Notes under the pieces: model-generated | Told to the model about the DNA's origin: nothing | What the model saw: the letters and a program-made list of their open reading frames with translations, nothing else | The model's database searches: none | Made by a program: the position numbers and the translations under genes | In this document: positions 9,321 to 23,721 of the stretch, piece by piece | How the letters are laid out: the number at the start of each line of letters is the position of its first letter | Position numbering within the stretch: position 1 is the first letter of the stretch | Assembly: GCA_016873115.1 (NCBI GenBank) | Contig: VGYB01000017.1 | Location: 1-40,292, forward strand | Direction: 5' to 3' | Origin: Planctomycetota bacterium | GTDB lineage: Bacteria > Planctomycetota > Phycisphaerae > Phycisphaerales > SM1A02 | Length of the DNA stretch: 40,292 nucleotides

Positions 9321-11048
9321 ATGTGGCTTGAACTCGCTGAACGCCTGTTGGGCGTCAGGAAGCTCCGCGCGCTCGGGCGCGCAGCCGCGGCGAGCGGGCA
9401 ACCGACCATCTTCCATGGGCTGCTGAAGGAAGGCCGACGCACGCTGGACATCACCGGCAGCATGGCGGAGTCCCTGCCGTCACGGGGGCCAGTGGTGGTC
9501 GTGGCGAACCACGCGTTCGGCCTCTGGGACCCCTGCGCGATGTGCGCGCTCGTCACCGAGCATCGGCGCGACATGCGGATCATGGCCAACATCCGCCTGA
9601 TGGAGGTCGACTCGCTCCGCCCGTGGTTGATCGGCGTCGATGTGATGGGGGGAGCCAATGCCCGAACCACGAACATGCGGTCCTTGCTGCAGGCCATGCA
9701 TTGGCTCGCCGATGGGCATGTGCTGTGCCTGTTCCCCGCGGGCGAAGTGAGCCACCGCAGCAGGAATTGCCCGGTGAGCGTGGATCCGCCGTGGTCGGCC
9801 AATGTCGGTCGCCTCATGATGAAGCACCGGGCCATGGTCGTGCCCATGTGGTTCGAGGGAGAGAACTCGCCGTGGTTCCATCGGCTCGGCATGGTGCACC
9901 CGATCCTGCGCACCGCGCAGATCCCGCGCGAGGCCGTGAAGCAATTCGGCCAGCCGCTGCGCGTGAGCATCGGTCGCCCGATCCTCCCCGAGCGGATGGA
10001 GCGCTTGGGCGATGCGCAGAGCGTGACCGACTACCTGCGCGTGCGCTGCGAGATGCTCGGTCGCGACCTGCGCCAACGCACGGTCAAGGCGCCCGTGCTC
10101 GGCCCCCAGGAGCCGCTCATCGAACACGCGCTGCACGGCCCCGACGCACTCGAGGAGGAACTGCGCGCGCTGCCCGGGACGGAGCTCTACCACAGCGAGG
10201 GTCCGTATGCCATCTACTGCGCGCGCGCATCGCTGATCCCACGCGTGCTGCACGAGATCGGCCGCCTGCGCGAGGTGACCTTTCGTGCGGTCGGAGAGGG
10301 CAGCGGTCGCGCGATCGATCTGGATCGGTACGACGGCCAGTATCGTCATGTCTTCGTCTGGCAGCGCGAACGGCGCGAGATCGTCGGTGCATATCGGCTC
10401 GGTCTGGCCCGTGAACTCATGGAGCAGTCGGGGATCAAGGGGCTCTACCTCTCGAACTACTTCGAGTTCGCGCCCGAGATCCTGCCCAGGCTCGAGGATG
10501 CACTGGAGATGGGCCGCGCGTGGGTCCGCGCGGAGTACCAGCGCAAGCCGCTGCCGCTCTTCCTGCTCTGGCGTGGCATCGCGCTCTTCATCGCGCGCCA
10601 TCCGCGCATCGGATCGCTGTACGGCACCGTCAGCGTGAGCGACGACTTCCGCTTGGCGAGCAAGCATGTGATCGTGGCGTTCCTGCATGCCACCCGCCGT
10701 GCCGACGGGCTCGCCGAGCTCGTGAAGGCGAAGAACCCGCCCAAGGACTTCGGCGCTCACCACGGGGATCCCGACAGTTGGCGGCAGTCGCTCGGGCAGG
10801 TGGCCGAACTCGAGCAGTTGGTCAAGGAGATCGAGGAAGGCCGGCGAACCGTGCCCGTCCTCATCCGCCAGTACCTCAAGATGGAAGCCCGCGTGCTCGC
10901 CTTCAATGTGGACCGCGACTTCGGCAATGTGGTCGATGTCCTCATGTGGATGGATGTTCCCCGGATCCCCGAGCGGATGTTGCGGGTCTACATGGGCCAG
11001 AAGGAGATGGGCGCCTACCTCGCCTTCCAGTCCGCGCACCGGGAGTAG
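9321..11048 (+). CDS. OlsF-like bifunctional acyltransferase (PlsC-type plus GNAT/OlsB-type domains)
   Basis: The 575-residue protein joins two acyltransferases. The N-terminal PlsC/AGPAT-like domain has NHAFGLWD at residues 63-70, an H-x5-D motif as in OlsF-type proteins, and FPAGEVS in place of the FPEGTRS block. From about residue 270 a GNAT-type domain resembles OlsB and hemolysin-like N-acyltransferases (HVFVWQRERREIVGAYRLG, GLYLSNYFEF, FLLWRGIALFIARHP). OlsF enzymes acylate the amino group and then the hydroxyl of the lipid to make ornithine or related aminolipids. The lipid made here is not shown by the sequence. The gene is flanked by aroB, whose predicted -10 uses this gene's stop codon. 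Confidence 0.82.
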   Translation: MWLELAERLLGVRKLRALGRAAAASGQPTIFHGLLKEGRRTLDITGSMAESLPSRGPVVVVANHAFGLWDPCAMCALVTEHRRDMRIMANIRLMEVDSLRPWLIGVDVMGGANARTTNMRSLLQAMHWLADGHVLCLFPAGEVSHRSRNCPVSVDPPWSANVGRLMMKHRAMVVPMWFEGENSPWFHRLGMVHPILRTAQIPREAVKQFGQPLRVSIGRPILPERMERLGDAQSVTDYLRVRCEMLGRDLRQRTVKAPVLGPQEPLIEHALHGPDALEEELRALPGTELYHSEGPYAIYCARASLIPRVLHEIGRLREVTFRAVGEGSGRAIDLDRYDGQYRHVFVWQRERREIVGAYRLGLARELMEQSGIKGLYLSNYFEFAPEILPRLEDALEMGRAWVRAEYQRKPLPLFLLWRGIALFIARHPRIGSLYGTVSVSDDFRLASKHVIVAFLHATRRADGLAELVKAKNPPKDFGAHHGDPDSWRQSLGQVAELEQLVKEIEEGRRTVPVLIRQYLKMEARVLAFNVDRDFGNVVDVLMWMDVPRIPERMLRVYMGQKEMGAYLAFQSAHRE

Positions 11049-22583: not shown

Positions 22584-22619
22584 GTGTTGCATGGTGGGGC
22601 CAAGTGTCGTAGAGTGGGG
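22584..22619 (+). promoter_or_regulatory. Four tandem 10-bp MraZ-type boxes upstream of mraZ
   Basis: GTGTTG (22584), GTGGGG (22594), GTGTCG (22604) and GTGGGG (22614) recur at exactly 10-base intervals. MraZ is known to bind arrays of GTGKN-type boxes spaced by one helical turn upstream of its own gene. The array ends 14 bases before the mraZ start. A TTGAGA at 22564 could be a -35 for a promoter overlapping the array, but the -10 is unclear. Confidence 0.75.
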
Positions 22620-22633
22620 CTGAGGTCACTTGG

Positions 22634-23050
22634 GTGCTCTTCACGTCCACCTACATCCACGGACTCGACGCGAAGCGTCGTCTAGCGATCCCCGCCCAAT
22701 GGCGGGCGCGCCTGGACCCCATGGTCCATGGCGCTCGGATCATGGTGTCGCCGGGCTCGGGTGGCCGGCTGTGCCTGTGGACCGAGAAGGAGTTCGAAGT
22801 CCAGGCGGAGCCGTTCCGGTCAGGGCTGGTGAACGATGCTCAATCCGCCAAGCGGGCGGCCTTGCTGTTCAGCAACAGCGATGCCCTCGAGGTCGATACG
22901 GCCGGCCGTATCCGCATTCCGGATCGGTTGCTCGAGCTGTTCAAGCTGGAGGACAAGGTGGTCCTCCTTGGGGTGGGCAACCACATCGAACTCATCAGCG
23001 CCTCGCAGTACCGGGAGCCGACGCTGGAGGACATCACGGGCATGCAGTGA
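22634..23050 (+). CDS. mraZ: MraZ, cell-division-associated transcriptional regulator
   Basis: The 138-residue product starts at GTG 22634, 7 bases after GAGGT. It has the two SpoVT/AbrB-like halves of MraZ: TYIHGLDAKRRLAIPAQWRA in the first and LEVDTAGRIRIPDRLLELF in the second. These contain the DxxxR DNA-contact motifs, with Arg in place of the usual Gly in the first. MraZ forms rings and represses its own operon, usually mraZ-mraW-ftsL. Here it is not followed by mraW or any division gene; it is followed by a structured RNA and csrA. Its operator array lies directly upstream. Confidence 0.93.
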   Translation: MLFTSTYIHGLDAKRRLAIPAQWRARLDPMVHGARIMVSPGSGGRLCLWTEKEFEVQAEPFRSGLVNDAQSAKRAALLFSNSDALEVDTAGRIRIPDRLLELFKLEDKVVLLGVGNHIELISASQYREPTLEDITGMQ

Positions 23051-23315
23051 GCGCACAGCGCACATTGCGGCTCGAACGAACGCACCAGGACGGTGCACTG
23101 GGTGCACGGATCGCACCCAATCGGGCACACGGAAGGTGCCCGGACACGCTGGAACCCGCCTGCACGGACGCAGCCTGTTCCAGCTTCTGACCGAACCATG
23201 GATGGTTCGGGCCACAGCCAAGGATGGCGGTGGCAGCCTCAAGGATGAGGCGCAGTGGGCGAAAGCCCGTTTCCGTCGATGCCCCTGCACCTCAAAGGGT
23301 GCAGGGGCATTTTTA
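23051..23315 (+). ncRNA. CsrB/RsmZ-like CsrA-sequestering RNA candidate: seven GGA-loop hairpins plus terminator
   Basis: The 265-base interval after mraZ holds seven successive hairpins, each with GGA in its loop. Stem positions and loop sequences are: 23082-23096 (AGGAC), 23099-23119 (ACGGATC), 23122-23142 (ACGGAAG), 23148-23184 with an outer 8-bp and inner 4-bp stem (ACGGAC), 23191-23210 (ATGGAT), 23211-23234 (AAGGAT) and 23236-23251 (AAGGAT). The stems differ in sequence while the loops stay ANGGA or AGGA, which matches the CsrA target ACANGGAU. GGA-to-GGA distances are 20-35 bases, suitable for bridging by a CsrA dimer. A GGGC-GAAA-GCCC hairpin (23257-23268) and an intrinsic terminator follow. 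No promoter was seen, so the 5' end is uncertain. It may be processed from the mraZ mRNA. The neighbour is csrA. Confidence 0.82.
23279..23314 (+). terminator. Strong intrinsic terminator of the GGA-hairpin RNA
   Basis: A perfect 13-bp stem, ATGCCCCTGCACC with GGTGCAGGGGCAT around the loop TCAAAG, is followed at once by a run of T (23310-23314). It separates the RNA and mraZ from csrA. Confidence 0.92.
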
Positions 23316-23356
23316 TGGACTTCCCAAGATAACCATCTGCCGGAACTCGACATTTG

Positions 23357-23478
23357 TTCATCCGAGGAGGGGTGAATCCCGAAGGAGGGGGGTACTTTGA
23401 TTTGGTCCGGGCGCGTCGCCTGGGTCAGCCACCGCACGGTGCGAACGGATGCGCGCGGTGGCCAGTCTGGGCAGGAGG
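23357..23478 (+). promoter_or_regulatory. csrA leader with GGA hairpins, likely CsrA autoregulation
   Basis: Between the terminator and csrA, TTCATCC pairs with GGGTGAA (23357-23376, loop GAGGAG). GCCACCGC pairs with GCGGTGGC (23428-23462), enclosing an inner 4-bp stem with loop GAACGGAT. A weaker CCC/GGG hairpin (23378-23389) has loop GAAGGA. The Shine-Dalgarno AGGAGG at 23473 is itself a GGA site. CsrA commonly represses its own mRNA by binding such sites. A promoter for csrA was not identified. Confidence 0.65.
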
Positions 23479-23484
23479 TCCGCT

Positions 23485-23721
23485 GTGCTCGTCATCACCC
23501 GTCACGTCGGCGAAGAAGTCATCATCGGAAACCCCGCAGCTCCGCTGGGGACCATCCGCATTGCCGCCATCAAGGGTGATCGCGTCCGCATTGCGTTTGA
23601 CTTCCCTCGAGAGATGCCCGTCCACCGCAGCGAGGTGGCCAGGGAGATCCTCGAGGAGCAGCAGCAGCGGCGAACTGACATCGCCGGCCGTATCACGGAA
23701 GACGGGGCGGCCGGGGCTTGA
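23485..23721 (+). CDS. csrA: CsrA, carbon-storage / post-transcriptional regulator
   Basis: The 78-residue product starts at GTG 23485, 6 bases after AGGAGG, and reads MLVITRHVGEEVIIG. It has IRIAAIKGDRVRIAFDFP and REMPVHRSEV, which contains the conserved VHR arginine that contacts RNA. CsrA dimers bind GGA motifs in hairpin loops near ribosome-binding sites and alter translation or stability of many mRNAs. It is often linked to flagella and surface life, though no flagellar gene is seen here. The residues NPAAPLG form a small insertion between the first strands compared with E. coli. A GGA-rich RNA directly upstream could titrate it. Confidence 0.95.
   Translation: MLVITRHVGEEVIIGNPAAPLGTIRIAAIKGDRVRIAFDFPREMPVHRSEVAREILEEQQQRRTDIAGRITEDGAAGA

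Follow-up and report, generated by a model that had tools for sequence, protein, structure and literature searches.

A divergent csrA gene of Phycisphaerales with a conserved Shine-Dalgarno hairpin and a sponge-like RNA downstream of mraZ: sequence evidence pointing to a self-limiting Csr circuit

Does the csrA gene of a planctomycete limit its own translation, and if so, through which part of its leader? The gene lies in a stretch of 40,292 nucleotides, hereafter the window, from the 2.36-Mb draft genome of an uncultured freshwater planctomycete. A sequence-only reading of this DNA had proposed that CsrA represses its own translation by binding GGA in two well-formed leader hairpins, in a weaker one and in the Shine-Dalgarno (SD) sequence, with an RNA encoded upstream acting as a titrator. 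The locus reads, in order, mraZ, a non-coding stretch, the csrA leader (23317-23484) and csrA, with the following features.

22634-23050, + strand: mraZ gene with a GTG start; Pfam MraZ, E 1.1e-16; adjoins csrA in most of the family.
23051-23316, + strand: non-coding stretch, putative CsrB/RsmZ-like RNA; seven hairpins have GGA in the loop; intrinsic terminator at about 23279-23316.
23357-23376, + strand: hairpin 1 of the sequence-only reading, loop GAGGAG; species-specific and probably not a conserved site.
23376-23393, + strand: the weak GGA site of that reading (23378-23389); z -0.96; TGA in place of GGA in five of eight species.
23428-23462, + strand: hairpin 2 of that reading, loop GAACGGAU with GGA at 23447; probable second CsrA site (predicted).
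23469-23481, + strand: SD hairpin, gggc-AGGAG-gucc, with the Shine-Dalgarno sequence in the loop; principal candidate CsrA operator.
23485-23721, + strand: csrA gene with a GTG start; divergent CsrA with a four-residue insertion; Pfam CsrA, E 7.6e-14.

The identities first given to csrA and mraZ stand on these Pfam matches. The window protein scores 51.9 bits against the CsrA profile PF02599 (curated cut-off 27), which makes it a member of the family, and its named relatives belong to metagenome-assembled genomes of Phycisphaerales and of other planctomycetes. This mraZ-linked protein is a divergent CsrA, and E. coli CsrA is the reference against which its insertion is defined. In an alignment with solved CsrA structures, it keeps R6, V42, H43 and R44 and has I, H and M in place of L4, R7 and V40, all of them residues that we take to be RNA contacts in the E. 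coli protein. The adjacency of mraZ and csrA extends to nearly the whole family, in two layouts: codirectional (mraZ, RNA, csrA) or convergent (loci L003-L031 and L073-L112). In other families of the order, the stretches around the divergent csrA genes yielded no mraZ.

Which part of the leader could serve as an operator? The SD sequence AGGAGG (23473-23478, six bases before the GTG start at 23485) is indeed a GGA site, as had been proposed. It had been noted only as sequence, and the hairpin that carries it went unremarked. This SD hairpin is the sole leader feature with convincing covariation, and it has what an autorepressed leader is expected to have, a GGA site overlapping the SD and held in an accessible loop. 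In an alignment of eight species of the genus, running from the mraZ stop to the csrA start, its 13 columns 23470-23482 are invariant. Since the leaders of the genus are too similar for an RNAalifold covariation analysis, the family and the order were used instead. The window has the form gggcAGGAGgtcc, and other family loci have gcgaCAGGAGGTtcgc, tcaggCAGGAGGTcctgg, cggcAGGAGGgccg, ggacAGGAGgtcc and others. The hairpin also occurs beyond the family, at divergent csrA genes of the order's other families (for instance ggacAGGAGgtcc, gtgcaAGGAGtgcac and tggtCAGGAGacca), and is missing from a good part of them; 19 loci lack AGGAG at the SD position, and several order members lack the hairpin. When the right flanks were dealt out anew among the 68 distinct contexts of family and order, none of 10,000 shuffles reached the observed mean stem score (3.35 vs. 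2.80 +/- 0.085). The excess is weaker in the family alone, being reached in 22 of 5,000 shuffles. These figures should be taken as support rather than proof, because the shuffles ignore relatedness, so that related sequences inflate them, and because the G and U that follow AGGAG are partly explained by complementarity to the anti-SD. As judged from these comparisons, compensatory changes apparently maintain the SD hairpin at the level of the family and, in part, at that of the order.

Could this hairpin work without CsrA? It might be a translation-tuning or temperature-sensitive structure, its AGGAG loop being a ribosome-binding site kept accessible. GGA is present in any strong SD, the stem is short and weak (-4.6 kcal/mol, z 0.28), and covariation reveals a structure, not its ligand. 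Still, a stem of at least 4 bp is found at 51 of the 66 family csrA starts (77%) and at only 18 of 84 control SD-like sites (21%), the controls being other AGGAG sites in the loci compared; among the control AGGAG sites of the same DNA, the count is 109 of 502. Moreover, RsmE binds stems that are closed by a C-G pair and carry an A(N)GGAX loop, stem-loops SL3 and SL4 of RsmZ representing the 5-nt form (PMC4005645), and the loop of the SD hairpin has this very form. A GGA-rich, sponge-like RNA is also encoded nearby. We thus regard a structure unrelated to CsrA as unlikely. Since RsmE is known to target 5-nt AGGAX loops that sit on a C-G pair, autorepression is the best reading; the SD hairpin would be its main site of action and hairpin 2 a second one.

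What, then, do the hairpins upstream of the SD contribute? The two well-formed GGA-loop hairpins that had been described do exist. Hairpin 1 has a stem of 6-7 bp (-8.2 kcal/mol, z -4.0 against its own shuffles), and hairpin 2 has 8 bp, a 3-nt bulge, 4 bp and a loop of 8 nt (-20.4, z -2.6). The weaker hairpin is located as described but folds no better than its own shuffles, and its GGA is lost in five of the eight species, where the site reads GAATGAGG. Of GGA hairpins whose stem has 5 bp or more, the leader holds three between positions -180 and -18, where 0.29 would be expected from dinucleotide shuffling (p ~0.01, 300 shuffles). Such a cluster is by itself unremarkable, since the entire leader folds no better than its shuffles (z +0.23) and a simple scan of the window gives three further clusters of four GGA hairpins. 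The folding of the whole leader was dropped as evidence of structure, this z being uninformative. The three further clusters (2777-2951 on the + strand; 1855-1991 and 9904-9987 on the - strand) are probably due to chance given the background rate of the scan, and possibly CsrA targets.

The comparison of leaders between relatives, which had been suggested as a check, separates these elements: hairpin 2 and the SD are kept in the genus, but hairpin 1 and the GGA of the weak site are not. In hairpin 1, 9 of the 20 columns vary, and both GGA and stem are missing in all seven sister species. Hairpin 2 is invariant in the eight species except for its outermost pair, which is broken in two, and so offers no covariation by which to test it. 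Most other genera have no equivalent. Outside the genus, GGA hairpins 5' of the SD are about twofold more frequent than in shuffles (22 vs. 11.6) and reach p<0.05 at 4 of 59 loci. An upstream second GGA site, as dimer bridging would use, is thus conserved in the genus through hairpin 2 and not general in the family; from its conservation, hairpin 2 is a probable second CsrA site. In the minimum-energy fold, the start of the leader (23317-23324, GGACTTCC) pairs over 8 bp with the SD region (23474-23481, GGAGGTCC). This long-range pairing was set aside, several of its pairs being broken in one sister species (L007).

One could also argue that the leader hairpins are mostly the product of chance in a G-rich leader, csrA being controlled by its promoter and the sponge RNA only. 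The unexceptional fold of the whole leader, the poor conservation of hairpin 1 and the weak site, the rarity of upstream GGA hairpins in other genera and the four-hairpin clusters elsewhere in the window all fit this view. Yet the SD hairpin covaries over family and order, and the block 23428-23482 is almost invariant although synonymous sites at the csrA start vary. Chance therefore seems an improbable account of the leader. The conserved SD-hairpin block looks constrained as RNA and not as protein, since the csrA codons just downstream vary synonymously. Conservation of 23449-23484 as an N-terminal CsrA extension, for which the open frame from the in-frame ATG at 23449 and the near-invariance of the block would speak, is most improbable and was rejected on the substitution pattern and on the starts of relatives: the outer-pair change of hairpin 2 in two species is non-synonymous there, whereas downstream csrA codons change synonymously, and nearly all relatives start with an ATG that takes the exact place of GTG 23485 and is preceded by a strong SD.

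The stretch between mraZ and the leader raises a second question: is it a titrator of CsrA? It folds far better than shuffles (z -8.76), and its seven GGA-loop hairpins have their GGA at 23088, 23108, 23131, 23166, 23200, 23222 and 23243, with an unpaired probability of 0.98-1.0 at all seven. The strong terminator, just 5' of the leader, occurs in each of the eight species compared within the genus. Multiple GGA-loop hairpins, no coding and a terminator are the anatomy of a sponge RNA, and to this extent the idea of an upstream titrator is borne out; the sequestration of CsrA is a prediction. The hairpins persist in the eight species; one stem shows an A-U to G-C double change, and several changes affect a single side. 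In loci outside the genus, the 400 bases that follow mraZ contain 203 GGA hairpins on the mraZ strand, where 33.8 are expected, and 23 on the opposite strand; 43 of 55 loci individually reach p<0.05. Loci with convergent mraZ and csrA account for 114 such hairpins (21.4 expected), and terminator-like sequences follow the RNA in 37 of 63 loci. Many, not all, genomes in other families of the order have long-stemmed ANGGA hairpins after mraZ, as seen without shuffle statistics. In one locus from a different family of the order (L247, genome G469), the mraZ strand carries six GGA hairpins some 285-455 bases past mraZ, while the opposite strand has none. Taken together, these comparisons strongly support a CsrB/RsmZ-like nature for the RNA at 23051-23316. 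We considered that the RNA might be part of the csrA leader and rejected this, as it follows mraZ also where mraZ is convergent with csrA. The sponge-like RNA is thus linked to mraZ, lying downstream of this gene in both layouts.

At the gathering threshold, Rfam matched only a tRNA and no Csr or Rsm family. A match of 23211-23252 (+ strand) to TwoAYGGAY, a predicted CsrA binder of Clostridia (PMC4333381), is below threshold (24.1 bits, cut-off 43). A scan of the + strand of the mraZ-csrA interval for sigma-70-like promoters recognised none. Just 5' of mraZ, at 22595-22635 (+ strand), the repeats TGGGG (22595), TGTCG (22605), TGGGG (22615) and TGGGT (22631), mostly 10 apart, resemble MraZ operator repeats. 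They suggest ordinary autoregulation of mraZ, which would also drive the downstream RNA if the two were co-transcribed.

How could these elements work together? The csrA mRNA would be a target of its own product. The SD would be displayed in the 5-nt AGGAG loop of a short hairpin with a C-G closing pair, and a CsrA dimer would clamp this loop, bridging in the window genus to the GGA in hairpin 2, 27 bases upstream. When free CsrA is high, the clamped SD would be closed to ribosomes. The mraZ-linked RNA would sequester CsrA and relieve the repression of csrA and of other targets. The anatomy, the conservation and the covariation of the elements are observed. From them we infer CsrA binding, repression and sequestration, as well as a leader transcript that includes 23428 onward. 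The comparative evidence backs the original proposal of autorepression for the SD hairpin and hairpin 2, where CsrA is presumed to bind, but not for hairpin 1 and the weak site. The best explanation of the locus, which we consider reasonably likely, is that csrA is autorepressed by way of the SD hairpin, helped by hairpin 2, and that the mraZ-linked RNA titrates CsrA.

Why would this CsrA be controlled by RNA? The genome of the window has one CsrA gene, as does its genus, and no FliW was detected in nine genomes of the genus, which would fit control by RNA rather than by FliW. A second CsrA match occurs in many genomes of the family, and in four of them (G033, G155, G177 and G179) the weaker of the two adjoins FliW. 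In a tally of the sampled genomes, two CsrA matches occur in 41 of 47 with FliW, against 0 of 14 without it. Phycisphaerales may hold two Csr systems: a flagellar one, with a canonical CsrA beside FliW, and one with the divergent CsrA, its SD-hairpin operator and a CsrB-like RNA downstream of mraZ, which would couple CsrA titration to the locus of this cell-division regulator. Genera without the flagellar CsrA-FliW pair would keep the second only. We give this broader scheme even chances.

According to a 2014 paper, CsrA-sequestering RNAs of the CsrB/RsmZ class had been identified only in Gammaproteobacteria, and it predicts candidates in Firmicutes (PMC4333381); in 2015 it was suggested that planctomycetes may rely on FliW instead (PMC4682653). 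No planctomycete Csr RNA was described in the literature that we searched, an absence that is weak evidence, as most subscription papers lay outside the search. The comparisons presented above point to a Csr circuit that limits itself, in an organism remote from the bacteria known to have circuits of this kind. If this is true, a circuit of autorepression plus sponge exists, or re-arose, in a distant phylum, where it is tied to mraZ. The SD hairpin and the GGA-hairpin RNA provide short, exact RNA targets for binding assays.

Finally, how does this putative circuit compare with known systems? In the CsrA-hag-FliW system of B. subtilis, CsrA blocks the SD through two leader sites (PMC7652899). 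The window is alike in its two predicted leader sites and predicted SD blockage, and differs in that FliW is undetected in its genus and the target is csrA, not flagellin. Like CsrB, CsrC and RsmX/Y/Z, the window RNA has tandem GGA-loop hairpins and an intrinsic terminator; unlike them, it has no Rfam match at the gathering threshold, is linked to mraZ and is planctomycete. Like SL3 and SL4 of P. fluorescens RsmZ and the RsmE-bound hairpin at the hcnA ribosome-binding site, the SD hairpin has a C-G pair immediately below an A(N)GGAX loop, binding being predicted in the window; in contrast to these, it has G-U as the penultimate pair, a position held by A-U, G-C or others in relatives. Another parallel is csrA of E. 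coli, whose leader has CsrA sites, one of them overlapping the SD, in a negative feedback with sponge RNAs (PMC7652899). The window has a predicted CsrA site at the SD of the csrA leader and a putative sponge RNA as well. Unlike in E. coli, its conserved operator would be a hairpin with the SD in the loop, accompanied in the genus by one upstream hairpin, and its protein is a divergent CsrA of Phycisphaerales.
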